Shown here piece after piece: positions 22,052-45,100 of a stretch of DNA of 45,100 nucleotides. The notes under the pieces are model-generated. The model did not search any database. It had not been told where the DNA came from and saw only the letters and a program-made list of their open reading frames with translations. The translations under genes and the position numbers were made by a program. Source of the DNA: a virus; IMG/VR virus record IMGVR_UViG_3300043399_000352, positions 1 through 45,100 of that record. One strand, written 5' to 3'. Positions within the stretch are counted from its first letter, which is position 1. The number at the start of each line of letters is the position of its first letter.

Positions 22052-24040
22052 TCACATCACCGCGATCGTGTTTGTTTCGGGGTCTAGCCAGTAGGGGGCG
22101 TCGTCGCCATCGCAAAGCCTGTGCAATGCGCGTCGCGCGTTGCTCTTGTAGTTGCCCTTGGGGTCCTTTTCAACGCCATCACGCTCGCGCATGCGACGCG
22201 CTGCCTCCTCGAGCACCGGCTTGATTTCAATCCCCTCGGTCTGCGCCTGGGCCATCTCCTGCAGCACCTCGTTGACCACCTTTTCGTTTTTGCCCAGCTT
22301 GCGATCGGCCACGCCGCCGACCGGTATCTCGGCCTCGACCACCACGCAGCTGGTGACCGGGTCCAGGTCCTCGTCGACGCCCAGCTGCACCACCTCGAGC
22401 GCAAAGCCCCACTGCAGGCCGTCCTCGCCGTCCTTGTTCTTGGACAGGCGGATTGACCTGAGCTCGCCCTCGCGCAGGATCTCGAGCTCAGCGTCGGCCG
22501 CGGCGCGCAGGCCAGACCAGCCCCTGGCGCCCTTGCTGGCGTCCTTGCCGCTGTGGTGGATGAGCACCACCAGGGCGCCCGTGAGCTCGTGCAGGCGCTT
22601 GCAATGGCCCAAGGCCTTGCCCACGTCCTCGCCGGCGTTCTCGTTGGCCCCTGGCGTGGTCTGGGCGAACGTGTCGACCACGATCACCTCGGCGCCACCG
22701 CTGGCGATGACGCCCGCGGCCAGGTCCTTGGCGTCCTTGAGCTCCATCAGGTTGGGCGCCGCGTTGAGCACGCTCATGGGAACCGTCGACAAGTCGACAC
22801 CCTGGGCCTGGGCGTAGGCCGCCAGGCGCTTGCGAAAGCCCTCGGCGCCCTCGGCTGCGATGTAGGCCACCCTGCCCTGCTTGGTGCGCTTGCCGCGCCA
22901 CGGCTGGCCCCGTGCGATCGCCAGCGCCATGTCGAGCACTGCAAAGGACTTGCCCGAGCCGCTGGCGCCGTAGACCACCGCGAGCCCCGCCTGGGGCAGC
23001 ACGCCCTTGATGATCCAAGGCAGCGCGGTTGCGCTCGAGAACTCGTGCACCGGCTCGAATGTGAAGCGCAGGCCGGCGCTGTCGGCTCGCTCGAGCGCCT
23101 GCTCGACCAGGTCCTCGAACTCATCGGCCGATGCCGGCGCGTTCAGGCTGATGCGTGCGCCGTGATCGTTGGCCATCTTGACCAGCGTGCGGCCGGTGAC
23201 CTGGGCGCCCGAGCCCTTGCCGAAAGAGCGCCAGCGCTCCTCGTTGAACTCGCGGGTCGTGTACTTGGGGCTGGCCTGGCTCCACTCATCCCAGAGCTCG
23301 AAGCCCTCGCCCTGGGTCTCGCAGTGAATGGCCATGCCGACCTGCAGCCAGTCGTCGTAGTGCAGGTCGTGCGGGAGCGCGGCCAGGCACTGCTGTATCT
23401 GCGAGACGGTCAAGCCCGAGGGCTCGGTGTGGGTCGGCGCCTCGGCGTGCTCTGTCCTGGCAAAGCGCTGCGCATGCAGCGTGCGCACGTCGTCGTTGAG
23501 CTGAGCAACCTCGTCGGTGTTGCCCAACAGCTCGGTGAGCTCGAGCGTGTTGCCGGTGAAGGTCACAAAGCCGCGAGAGCTGAAGCACTCCATGCCGTAG
23601 GCGCCGCCGCGCAGGGCTTTGCCGTTGCCGAGATCCCCTTTGAAGAAGAGCCGCACGCCTCGCCCGCTGGGGCTGAACTCGGCATAGGTGTCGACCAGCA
23701 GCTGCTCGACGTCTGGGTGCACGCGGCCGTCGGTGATGCAGTCGTCGAAGTCGAGCGCGCAGATCCCGAACTGGGACAGCGTCGCAAAACCGACACCGTC
23801 GAAACCCCGACGCACAGCGGCAGCCTTGGCGGCGTCGAATGTGACCAGGTTTGCTACGTCTCGAGTTCCGCCTTGTTCACCGTGACGTTTGCCACCGTTG
23901 GCGTAATAGGGAACCTTGCGGGGCTTGCCCCCGCCTGGGTTGTCCTCGAAGCGCCAGATAACCCAGGCCTCGAGATCGCGGATCGCCGCGGGCGCTTCGA
24001 CGTTGCGAAGGTGGGGAGTGATGCGGGCCACGTTACTCAT
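22052..24040 (-). CDS. Primase/RepA-like helicase fusion (662 aa)
   Basis: The N-terminal ~200 residues resemble a primase-polymerase-like domain: [31 protein letters not shown] (acidic pair) and [13 protein letters not shown] PriCT-like helical linker follows. The C-terminal half is a RecA/RepA-type ATPase with Walker A GASGSGKS (about residues 358-365, K364), Walker B EVIVVDTF (~455) and [11 protein letters not shown] (motif 3-like). It should prime and unwind phage DNA. Its ATG overlaps the stop of the alternative-frame reading frame as ATGA. Homologues are common in phages and plasmids. Confidence 0.88.
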
Positions 24041-24981
24041 GCCAACTCCTCAAGGTTGGCAGTCGAGCCATGCACCGATGAACTCGGCCGCGACTTGCGG
24101 GACGATGGCATTGCCGTAGGCGCGCAGACGTCCCACTCGGCCGGGAGACCCATGAGCCAGCGGGAATGCGCCGGGTTCAACTGGCCGCCACTTGCCGTCC
24201 CGGCAAGCCAGCCAGTCAGCATTACTCCAGTGGCCGTTAACCGAGCCGGGCCGCCCAACGTGGATAGAGCCGCCGTGCACAGGTCGTTCCCCCAACCCTT
24301 GCGGGCCGCTTCCGCTTCCGCACCGCTCAGTGTCCTTACCGACTTGTCTCCATCCTTCGCACCTGTTGTCGGCCAGCCCGCTAGGTTCGCTTGCCTCGGC
24401 AACTGGTCGAACCGCTCCGACCCGTCCGCCCTCGGCTTGATGTCGCCGCCCGTGTCCTTCCAGTCGCGCGTCGTCGGTGTGACCCACCCAGTACAGTCGC
24501 TGTCGGATGTGCGGCGCGCCGATGCCCGCAGCGCACAGATCGGCGGCCCCAGCGGCGTAGCCCGCAGCTTCCAGGTCAGCGCGTACAAGGTCGAGCCAAG
24601 CGAGGCCGTCCTTGCTTGCAACCTGCTCGCCAAAGACGACTGGAGGGCGGCACTCTTCGATGAGGTGGTAGAAGGCTGGCCAGAGGTGCCGCTCGTCAGC
24701 AAACCCAGCGCCTTTGCCTGCATCGGAGAAAGGCTGACAAGGGCAGCTACCTGTCCACACTCGTCGGGTGTCAGCCCAGCCAGCAAGGCGGAGAGCTCGG
24801 GACCAGACACCGATGCCCGCGAAAAAATGACACTGGGTGAACTCTCGCAGCTCAATCGGATGGACGTCTTCGATGCTGCGGGTGTCGACGACACCGTCTG
24901 CGATGTGACCCTCGGCGATAAGGTTGCGCAGCCACTGTGCTGCGTAAGGGTCAACCTCGTTGTAGTAAGCGGACATGACAT
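24037..24981 (-). CDS. Overprinted reading frame spanning the whole methyltransferase gene (314 aa, same strand, other frame)
   Basis: Its ATG (24979-24981) lies 5 nt upstream of the methyltransferase ATG. The frame stays open throughout and its TGA overlaps the primase/helicase start as ATGA, as coupled genes do. The product is Ser/Thr/Arg/Ala-rich. It contains [39 protein letters not shown] and [16 protein letters not shown]. From memory these match a family of phage proteins annotated as methyltransferase-associated or hypothetical; the LNPxxxxWLMGxP element also occurs near the end of unrelated phage methyltransferase-type proteins. The frame could open further up at 25062, inside the leader hairpin, but the ATG at 24981 is preferred. 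Whether it is translated is unproven. Confidence 0.5.
24050..24976 (-). CDS. C5-cytosine DNA methyltransferase (308 aa)
   Basis: It transfers a methyl group from SAM to cytosine, probably to shield phage DNA from host restriction. Motif I is [14 protein letters not shown]. Motif IV carries the catalytic cysteine in [26 protein letters not shown] matches motif VI (ENV-like). [10 protein letters not shown] is the motif VIII region. [19 protein letters not shown] is motifs IX-X. It is compact, with a short target-recognition region (~190-240). ATG at 24974-24976; stop 9 nt before the primase start. A second reading frame covers it completely. Target sequence unknown. Confidence 0.93.
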
Positions 24982-25002
24982 GGCGACTTTCAAAAAAGCG
25001 CC

Positions 25003-25088
25003 ACGGGTGAGGGTTGTGAAGTCGCCAAACCGTACCCGCTGTCCACGGGCCACAACCCTCACCCGTAGCGGGACAGTTTTGGTTTGGC
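25003..25088 (-). promoter_or_regulatory. Attenuator-like leader of the methyltransferase
   Basis: In the leftward RNA, a perfect 16-bp hairpin (25066-25051 with 25018-25003) is followed by GGCGC and six U (24997-24992), an intrinsic-terminator layout. A competing 5' hairpin pairs 25088-25081 with 25031-25024 (8 bp) and 25076-25071 with 25044-25039 (6 bp). It encloses the first strand of the terminator stem, so the two folds exclude each other. A -10-like TACAGT at 25101-25096 would start RNA close to 25088. Confidence 0.65.
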
Positions 25089-25093
25089 AGGGG

Positions 25094-25112
25094 TTACTGT
25101 AGCAGACAGTAA
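25094..25112. promoter_or_regulatory. Operator O1 (TTACTGT-N5-ACAGTAA), leftward
   Basis: A perfect 7-bp inverted repeat containing TGTAGC-AGAC-AGTAAA (25098-25113). On the minus strand the GCTACAGT part supplies a TACAGT -10 hexamer. No good -35 is visible. It lies between the 58-aa gene and the methyltransferase leader. Confidence 0.7.
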
Positions 25113-41730: not shown

Positions 41731-44700
41731 TCAGCGCTGCTTGCTCTCCGGGCTGGCAGTGCCAGTCACCACACCGCGTGTCAGGTCGACCGGGCCGGTC
41801 GGCTCAATCTTGCCTTGAGCGACGCCGGCCGCGTATCCGACCGGGCGAGCCAGGGCGAAGATGGGCAGGCCGGTGATCAGCGTTGCAGCAGATGCTACGT
41901 CGCGCACCGCCTTCTGCGCGTTGCCGTCGTCGACGACCGCCTTGTAAACGCTGGCCGGCGAGCTCACCGCCGACTCGATCAGCGACACCGCGGGCGACAG
42001 CGAGAACTTGTCATCGGCCGGGTTGTCGTTGAACCGGTTGACCACGAGCTGCGCCGCCTGGCCGACGATCGGAACCATCGCGACCATGCCACGCACGGTG
42101 CCCAGGCCGAACACGGCGGCGAGCCAGTCGTCGAGATACCCGTCGCCCTCGTCGTCCTCGGGGCCGCCACGGAATGCCTGGGCGATTGCCTCAGCCACCC
42201 AGATCGGCACCAGCAGGCCGGCGAGCGCCACGTACAGCAGCTTGCCGGCGCCCTTCTTCAGACCCATGTCGTCGACGATCTGCTTGATCGCAGTCGCGTT
42301 GGTGTTGGCCATCATGTTGAAGTAGGACACGAACTGCGTGAACAGTCGGGCGTAGCCCGGGCCAGTCTCAAACCGGCTCACGTCTTCGGGCAGCGTCGAG
42401 CCCTGGGTCTGGCGCACGACGCCGTCGGCAAACCGCAGCGCGTCGCTTTCCTCCATGCCCTGCTCGATCGCCTGGTTGTACGCGGCGGTCCAGATGATCG
42501 GGCTCATCGTGTTGTCGACGGCCGCTTGCAGGAAGTAGGCGTGGCGCTGTGTCCAGGCCTGGCCGCGCTCGAGCAGCGTCGGGTCGACCAGGATCTCCTC
42601 GACGGCGTCGTTCATGGCCGACGTCTCGTTGAGCATGCGGTCCTTCATGTAGGCCGAGGACGCGGCCACCGACTCGCGCATTGCCTTGGGGTCCGCCGTA
42701 AACCGCGCCGCGGCGCTGAGCATCAGGCTGGGCTTGACCTTGACCGCTGCCAGGCTGAAGCCCGTGATCTGCTGCGCCGTGTTCGACAGGTTGGCAAACA
42801 TCAGCGCCATGCCCGCACGCGAGCGCGCCGCGCTCAGGAACCGGGACAGCTTGCGGTCGCCCACCACCGGGGTCTCGACAACCTGGCGGGCGCTGCGGTT
42901 GAGCCAGGGGGTCAGCATGCCCTCGTAGGCGCCCGGGTCGATGCGATCGAGCGCGTAGCTCACCCGCTTGTTGGTGAGCAGGCGGCGCACGTCGGTGACC
43001 GCGCCCTGCATGTGCGAGAACAGCAGCACCTTGTCCATGTGCTGGGCCAGCGCACGGATGTCCAGCAGCAGAGGCTTGTTGTACTCGACGCGGCTCTTGG
43101 TGAACCCGCTGGGCGCTGCCGGGAAGGCGTAGGCCATGCTCTCGTTCTCGCCCTCGGCGAGCTCGCGCAGCTTGGCGTCCTTGACCAGGCGGCTGTCCGT
43201 CTGCGCCGGCACGTAGCCGCCACGGTAGGTCCCGAACGGGGTGACCACCTCGTTGGCTGTGACCTCGGCAAAGTACCGGCCGAAGACCTTGCGGTGCGTC
43301 TCCTGGGCCAGGGGCTTCATCTGCTCGAGCAGGTCCCACACGCCCTGGGCAAAGTCGTAGTGCTCCTTGCGCAGCTTGCCTTCGCTGATCAGGCGCGCGA
43401 TGAAGGCATCCCAGCGGCTGGTGTCGAGCGTGCCGTCGGCGTTTTCAAAGGCCCACTGGCGGCCCAGCAGCAGCTTGCGCTTGTTGCTGTCGTTGCCGGT
43501 GTGCAGGATCGCGTGCATGAGCTCGGCCATGCCAGAGTCGCGGGCGTTGCCGAAGGTGTAGCCGAGCTCGGGCGCTTCAATCGCGCCTCGAGGCAGCATG
43601 GGCGCGATCGCCTGCAGCAGCGCGGTGAACTGCTTGCGGTAGGCCACGCGGTCGGTACGGTAGCGATCGGCGGCGTCCTTGACCGGCTGGAACACCAGGC
43701 GCAGGAACGGGCCGCCGAAACGGCCGTCCAGGCGCTCGGCCCACTGCTCGACCCGGCTCAGGATCGACTTGGCAAATTGCAGCTTGAGGCCGCGCTCCTC
43801 GCGGTCGGTGATGGCGCCCTTCTCGCCCGGCACCTGGTCGGGGATGCCGATGTCATCCATCCGGCCCATGAGCTCGTCGGCAGCGTCCTCGATGTCCAGC
43901 AGGTTGCCGGCCACCTCCATCTGGCGCGAGCGCTTGGCCAGCTCCCACATGGCGCGCAGCTCGTCGTTGAGCCCGCGCAGCTCCTCCACCGTGAGCTCGT
44001 CCAGCGGCATGGCATTGATCAGCGCAGCATCGACGCCAGGCTTGAGCGCGGCGTACATGGCCGGGTCGTTCTTGGCGACCGTCTCCATGTACTCGAGCGC
44101 AGACTTCTCCAGGCGAGGGGCCACGCCGTAGGCGGCCAGGATCGCACGCATTGCGTTGACGACGTCGGGGTCGCGCCCACCTTTGACGACCTTCTCGTCG
44201 TTGCCCTTGGTGACGCGCTTGAAAAACTCCAGGATCTTGATCGCCTCGGCCTGGGCGTCTTGCAGCGCCTTGACCGTCGCGTTGTTGAGCATCTGGTCGC
44301 GCTTGGCCTGCACGGCCGCCTGCGTCTCACCCTTGGCCGTGGCTTCCTGCCAGCGCTTGCCGGCGCGGGCCTCGGCGCTGCGGTGCTGCCACGCCGCATT
44401 GCGCAGGTCCTTGACCCGGCGGCGTGCGGCGATGTTGGCGGCAAACTCTTTGGCGGCCCGCAGGACCGCGTTGACCGTAATCGGCCGGCCGTTGCTGGCC
44501 GTGCGCCCGGTGTCCTCGCGCTCGTTGAGCATCTCGGCCTGGCTCTTGAGCTCGGTGGCCAGGCTGCGGGCGCGCGCCTCGTTGTGCACCGCCTGGTTGG
44601 CAGCGTCCGCGATCGCCTCGGGCGTGGCCAGGTCGCCGTGGCGCTCGAGCATGCGCTGGTCGGTCTTGCCCTCGACCACGGACTTGATGTCCTCGGCCGC

Positions 44701-45100
44701 GAGGATTGCGCGCACCAGGGCGTCGCCGTTGGCGAAGCCAAACATCTCGGCGACCATGTCCGGGTGCAGGCCCTCTTTGGCCGTCATGCCCTTGAGACGG
44801 GTCAGATCCGGCCGGCCCAGCATGGTCTCGGGGTAGATCTCGGCCAGGCCTTCGGTCGACAGCCGGAAGCCCTTCTGCGCCTTGATCTGGTCGCCGGTCT
44901 CCGGGTCGACGGTCTCGCCCTTCTTCAGCCAATTGATCGCACGGTAGATCGGCTCCGCCTCGACCTCGGCGCGGACTTCGTCCTCGATACCCTTGCGCAG
45001 CGTGGCGGCCTGCTTCTGAAGCGCTTTAATTGCCTTGTTACGGGCGTTAACCGTCCATTTGAGGTCGCGCAGGGACCTGGCCTGCAGCGTCTCGATCGCC
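41731..45100 (-). CDS. Giant ejection/polyvalent virion protein, C-terminal part (from the circular junction)
   Basis: In-frame continuation of the gene starting at 4746 (residues ~1583-2662); bases 44975-45100 repeat 2-127. No stop interrupts the frame. The first ~500 residues are helical. Residues near 2020-2230 carry the block (AELMHAILHTGND, VVTPFGTYRGGYVPAQTDS, YNKPLLLDIRALAQHMDKVL) seen in PLxRFG-type phage proteins. A hydrophobic segment (LLYVALAGLLVPIWVAEAIAQ) lies at about residue 2500. The position before the fibre equals T7 gp16. Membrane or DNA translocation during ejection is inferred. No lysozyme motif was seen. Confidence 0.9.
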   Translation of the reverse strand, partial: AIETLQARSLRDLKWTVNARNKAIKALQKQAATLRKGIEDEVRAEVEAEPIYRAINWLKKGETVDPETGDQIKAQKGFRLSTEGLAEIYPETMLGRPDLTRLKGMTAKEGLHPDMVAEMFGFANGDALVRAILAAEDIKSVVEGKTDQRMLERHGDLATPEAIADAANQAVHNEARARSLATELKSQAEMLNEREDTGRTASNGRPITVNAVLRAAKEFAANIAARRRVKDLRNAAWQHRSAEARAGKRWQEATAKGETQAAVQAKRDQMLNNATVKALQDAQAEAIKILEFFKRVTKGNDEKVVKGGRDPDVVNAMRAILAAYGVAPRLEKSALEYMETVAKNDPAMYAALKPGVDAALINAMPLDELTVEELRGLNDELRAMWELAKRSRQMEVAGNLLDIEDAADELMGRMDDIGIPDQVPGEKGAITDREERGLKLQFAKSILSRVEQWAERLDGRFGGPFLRLVFQPVKDAADRYRTDRVAYRKQFTALLQAIAPMLPRGAIEAPELGYTFGNARDSGMAELMHAILHTGNDSNKRKLLLGRQWAFENADGTLDTSRWDAFIARLISEGKLRKEHYDFAQGVWDLLEQMKPLAQETHRKVFGRYFAEVTANEVVTPFGTYRGGYVPAQTDSRLVKDAKLRELAEGENESMAYAFPAAPSGFTKSRVEYNKPLLLDIRALAQHMDKVLLFSHMQGAVTDVRRLLTNKRVSYALDRIDPGAYEGMLTPWLNRSARQVVETPVVGDRKLSRFLSAARSRAGMALMFANLSNTAQQITGFSLAAVKVKPSLMLSAAARFTADPKAMRESVAASSAYMKDRMLNETSAMNDAVEEILVDPTLLERGQAWTQRHAYFLQAAVDNTMSPIIWTAAYNQAIEQGMEESDALRFADGVVRQTQGSTLPEDVSRFETGPGYARLFTQFVSYFNMMANTNATAIKQIVDDMGLKKGAGKLLYVALAGLLVPIWVAEAIAQAFRGGPEDDEGDGYLDDWLAAVFGLGTVRGMVAMVPIVGQAAQLVVNRFNDNPADDKFSLSPAVSLIESAVSSPASVYKAVVDDGNAQKAVRDVASAATLITGLPIFALARPVGYAAGVAQGKIEPTGPVDLTRGVVTGTASPESKQR
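44975..45100. repeat. Right copy of the 126-bp end overlap
   Basis: Identical to bases 2-127. See the left copy. Confidence 0.9.

Follow-up and report, generated by a model that had tools for sequence, protein, structure and literature searches.

Within the 45,100-nt stretch of viral DNA analysed here (the window; IMG/VR record IMGVR_UViG_3300043399_000352, positions 1-45,100), a gene for a C5 cytosine methyltransferase shares its DNA with a second long reading frame on the same strand. The question is whether this second frame is a gene and, if so, what its product does. A sequence-only reading had described two ATGs 5 nt apart that open two frames of about 310 aa, here called alpha (the methyltransferase frame) and beta (+1 relative to alpha), with the TGA of beta overlapping the start of a primase/helicase gene as ATGA, and the layout of the locus agrees with it (Table 1). 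Alpha is a C5 methyltransferase as described, matching phrog_363 (2e-88) and PF00145 (5.5e-14). Beta matches phrog_1008 and phrog_31772, and the segments of it that had been recognised from phage proteins (residues 129-138 and within 266-283) do fall in conserved regions of a family that PHROGs already lists.

Table 1. Features of the overlapping locus in the window
Feature	Position	Strand	Details
Alpha, C5 cytosine methyltransferase frame	24050..24976	-	308 aa + stop; ATG 24976
Alpha motif I	24826-24809	-	
Alpha motif IV	24742-24725	-	
Alpha motif VI	24634-24620	-	
Alpha motif VIII	24514-24488	-	
Alpha motif X	24133-24098	-	
Beta, second frame, +1 relative to alpha	24037..24981	-	314 aa + stop; probable start ATG 24981, TGA 24039-24037
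Beta conserved core	24109..24849	-	residues 45-291
Beta motif IX-like segment	24133..24186	-	18 residues
Paired starts	24974..24981	-	ATGTCATG; beta ATG 24981 (probable), alpha ATG 24976
Position at which most homologues have an internal beta start and Shine-Dalgarno sequence, lost here	24865..24883	-	ACCCGCAGCATCGAAGACG; ACG replaces ATG, no GGAG
ATGA junction	24037..24040	-	beta stop overlapping primase-helicase start (ATG 24040)
Primase-helicase, downstream gene	22052..24040	-	662 aa; PriCT-2 + AAA domains

The ATGA junction suggests that translation of the primase-helicase is coupled to that of beta in this phage, which is an ordinary arrangement; a GAGGAG also lies 5' of the primase-helicase ATG. 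On the opposite strand, an open frame of 849 aa (window 22553-25102, +) runs across the primase and methyltransferase genes and is taken as a GC-driven by-product. Elsewhere in the window, a 1030-aa protein (41731-44823, -) matches phrog_9880, a family of unknown function (1e-222), over only the C-terminal half of the 2231-position profile.

Taken alone, the open second frame of the window is weakly unusual and suggestive only. Synonymous shuffling of this gene, at 65% GC, gives 2.7 expected stops in the beta frame and a probability of an open frame of 0.016. Homologues were gathered from viral contigs, genomes and phages, and a match to beta, read +1 relative to the methyltransferase, was present at 382 of 382 loci. 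These genes do not freely carry stops in the second frame, the outcome that the sequence-only reading had set against itself: in 236 non-redundant homologues, 4 stops were observed in the +1 core against 701 expected (SD 19), and the four exceptions lie near the core edges. A set of 94 genes, in which GC reaches down to 53%, has 1 stop in the +1 core against 280 expected and 1024 stops in the +2 control frame.

Selection was measured from isolated differences in 97 disjoint pairs of genes, each difference being scored by its effect in both frames. The dNN/dNS of beta is 0.27 (CI 0.23-0.32) over alpha residues 45-295, as compared to 2.8 in the +2 control frame and 2.1 at residues 3-33, outside the usual overlap. 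By region, the value is 0.51 over residues 45-125, a weaker signal, and 0.14 and 0.23 in two later parts of the overlap. The rate of changes that are synonymous in alpha and alter beta falls from 0.166 (residues 3-33) to 0.045 (residues 166-295), and constraint on beta is strongest where alpha varies most. The stop counts in homologues and the frame-specific rates thus indicate purifying selection on both frames and lead us to reject a chance open frame. Judged by these patterns, beta is a real protein-coding gene that overlaps the methyltransferase gene.

The second frame might instead be untranslated, left open as a side effect of GC-rich codons and of the motifs conserved in alpha, as the GC content and modest improbability of the open frame in the window would allow, and as would the long open +1 runs over motifs IV-VIII in some single-chain enzymes. 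We regard this as hardly credible given the near absence of stops across genes whose GC reaches down to 53% in the 94-gene set, the rate tests, the conserved start signal described below and the peak of beta constraint where alpha is most variable. The open runs in question occur in three related single-chain C5 methyltransferases of Streptococcus and Lactobacillus phages (L394:798-1880, L397:801-1664 and L398:819-1943); they span 141-161 codons and exceed those in all 500 synonymous shuffles. Because some single-chain enzymes show such runs in this region, the conserved motifs of alpha may account for part of the conservation seen at beta residues 45-125.

In most homologues, beta opens near alpha codon 37 and stops ahead of alpha's stop. 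An ATG at codon 37 (GAT|G) is found in 169 genes versus 77 expected, 122 genes combine an internal ATG with a GGAG spaced at 8 nt (13 expected), and GAT is used at this codon in 80% of cases versus 37% elsewhere. This pattern indicates that an internal ribosome binding site is written into the codons of alpha in most homologues. Six genes, including that of the window (L001, L004, L007, L014, L308 and L333), lack both the internal ATG and the Shine-Dalgarno sequence and have an ATG or GTG 5 nt 5' of the alpha start. A start codon at this position occurs in 6 of 9 genes with the frame open upstream as compared to 10 of 147 others (Fisher 3e-5, uncorrected for kinship). When a tree was used to ask whether the upstream start arose once, five of the six adjoined one another and the sixth, L333, was placed elsewhere. 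Beta of the window's group therefore probably starts at this upstream codon. In L004, L014 and L308, the GTG that may start beta shares nucleotides with a TGA (GTGA) that apparently ends an upstream frame, in the style of coupled genes.

The complete overlap that had been described is accordingly present in the window, but it does not hold for the family in general: by the positions of the start signals, start-to-stop overlap appears as a local variant of the window's small group. Nor does selection extend along the whole second frame. No selection was detectable on the N-terminal ~40 residues of beta in this group (14 NN and 6 NS differences, both small counts), and because of this the first ~40 residues are at most a tolerated leader.

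A clue to the role of beta lies in what alpha lacks. Alpha carries motifs I, IV, VI, VIII and X, and its profile aligned with single-chain C5 enzymes across motifs I-VIII (E 2.6e-17), with a weak match at motif X. Motif IX is absent from alpha's frame, where the profile aligns on either side of the motif IX columns and not over them. Alpha is thus not a single-chain C5 methyltransferase in the sense of a PF00145 protein with motifs I-X in one frame. In 4 of 11 control single-chain genes, a pattern search located IX and X together in the same frame. An AlphaFold model of alpha (pTM 0.66) has structural matches to M.HaeIII and M.HhaI; residues 173-239 and 273-286 were modelled with very low confidence, and the variable region differs widely between homologues.

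The sole local match of beta to single-chain enzymes is motif IX (L-N-P...L-M-G-x-P), at an E value of 0.33 that is not significant alone. Its codons begin 65 nt 5' of the G-N of alpha's motif X in 181 of 193 genes, the IX-X spacing in measured single-chain enzymes being 84-99 nt. The order VIII-IX-X along the DNA is as in ordinary enzymes, with the putative IX in the other frame. Searches with beta found nothing over cut-off in Pfam and NCBIfam, and its profile had no match among PDB sequences. Modelled alone, beta gave a poor structure (pLDDT 60, pTM 0.30), with which a fold search found no structural match. A subunit folding on its partner should model poorly by itself, though a poor model does not count as evidence for one. 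A stand-alone beta was sought and not found among the 382 loci or in the distant relatives examined.

A precedent for such a pair exists in M.EcoHK31I (YGGCCR) of E. coli, in which the frame of the small subunit lies inside the gene for the large subunit. The beta polypeptide of M.EcoHK31I is internal and shorter, at about 176 aa, whereas the open beta frame of the window overruns alpha at both ends. In that enzyme, the large subunit carries motifs I-VIII, X and a predicted recognition domain, and the smaller polypeptide carries motif IX only (PMC3404938); a requirement for both in methylation is also published. In the window, alpha has the motif content of the large subunit and beta has a motif IX-like segment, a likeness of published layout and not of sequence. 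The window pair is a phage gene, whereas M.EcoHK31I is part of a restriction-modification system. M.AquI (CYCGRG) is likewise a C5 enzyme of two polypeptides, with motifs IX and X both in the smaller subunit (PMC3404938); unlike the window pair, it is split in linear order with no embedded frame.

Because alpha is without motif IX, beta has a motif IX-like segment and M.EcoHK31I has this layout, we favor beta as a subunit over beta as a protein with a separate function. The latter reading, in which beta is a real overlapping gene with its own job (e.g. in binding DNA, countering restriction or regulating the gene that follows), draws on the weak score of the motif IX match and on the lack of a Pfam domain or structural match, but it is improbable: beta never occurs without alpha at the loci and in the distant relatives read, a segment resembling the motif missing from alpha sits at the expected place in beta, and M.EcoHK31I divides its motifs likewise. 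A still less probable alternative is that the second frame is translated as a fusion, by a programmed frameshift from alpha into +1 that joins motifs I-VIII to motif IX of beta. Such a shift would rebuild the single-chain order up to IX, but the second frame has starts of its own, whether the strong internal ATG and Shine-Dalgarno sequence of most homologues or the probable ATG or GTG start upstream of alpha in the window's group, and M.EcoHK31I consists of two polypeptides.

Sequence evidence and analogy with M.EcoHK31I make it very probable that alpha and beta, written in two frames over one stretch of DNA, are the subunits of a C5-cytosine DNA methyltransferase of two polypeptides and assemble into one enzyme. 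The second product, which had been proposed as a separate gene, would thus be coding and overlapping but not independent, and is most likely a motif IX-bearing beta subunit. Both polypeptides would be made in this phage from one mRNA via separate starts. The catalytic domain (motifs I-VIII) would come from alpha, as would motif X; beta would contribute motif IX and perhaps some of the target recognition. Alpha and beta would bind each other to form one active enzyme, with both required for methylation of phage DNA, which would presumably be shielded thereby from host restriction.

The overlap recurs in phages from several phyla of bacteria. A tblastn search with the second frame returned 213 phage records (E < 1e-5), and a search from the Paenibacillus beta reaches the betas of proteobacterial phages. 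The same kind of protein was read directly in the +1 frame in phages of Paenibacillus (Tadhana), Lactobacillus (Lc-Nu), Bacteroides (BKO1-TP3), Escherichia (Delraymugoa, CarlMeissner and N15) and Xanthomonas (XAP3), and relative to gp75 in Mycobacterium phage Llama. All seven distant +1 frames scanned, including those of Tadhana, Lc-Nu, BKO1-TP3, ctjLE16 and Llama, match phrog_1008 (2e-74 to 6e-17), although the openness test is weak for Llama (P 0.05) and ctjLE16 (P 0.04). The overlapping pair is probably present in Mycobacterium phages. In Llama (L384:1884-2643), one methyltransferase seems to draw on three frames: motifs I-IV lie in gp74, VIII and X in gp75, which is read in another frame, and the LMGFP segment in the third.

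Among the records listed, most annotate only one gene at the locus. The pair is annotated in phage K1H (ORF28 within ORF29) and in a Paenibacillus phage (Tadhana_54/55). The 'C-specific methylase' and 'Mte8-like protein' of phages K1G and K1H (ORF29/ORF28) are the same overlapping pair, annotated as two ORFs with no joint function assigned; unlike that of the window, their beta starts internally (within alpha codon 30) and ends before the alpha stop. The two frames, in the window and in distant phages alike, match PHROGs families 363 (alpha) and 1008 (beta), each being labelled 'DNA methyltransferase', a label that is silent on the shared DNA. In Paenibacillus phage HB10c2 (KP202972.1 29842-30543), the annotation given to the beta frame is 'putative BsuMI modification methylase subunit YdiP'.

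As to how the arrangement arose, one possibility, to which we give somewhat less than even weight, is an ancient frame swap followed by spread among phages. The motif IX segment of a single-chain ancestor would have moved to the +1 frame, the corresponding stretch of alpha and the N-terminal half of beta would each have been overprinted, and the window's group would have shifted its beta start upstream of that of alpha, so completing the overlap. The frame-swapped pair would then comprise about 250 codons of same-strand overlap in phages of Proteobacteria, Firmicutes, Bacteroidota and probably Actinobacteria. This origin is attractive but unproven.

Overlapping methyltransferase pairs are a known kind, as seen in M.EcoHK31I and in the annotated pairs of K1-specific and Paenibacillus phages. 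A literature search of open-licence papers found none describing the phage-wide overlap. Within that literature, novelty appears to lie in the breadth of the overlap, the quantified selection in two frames, the start signal internal to alpha and, in the window's group, the apparent relocation of the start by which the overlap becomes complete. Same-strand overlaps this long with selection shown in both frames are uncommon, and this one turns up in phage records by the hundreds. Because the pair is mostly annotated as one gene, ignoring the second frame in a knock-out, in codon-optimised expression or in specificity assignment could silently break the enzyme. The family also offers a large natural data set on the co-evolution of two frames and on a split enzyme arising by frame change.
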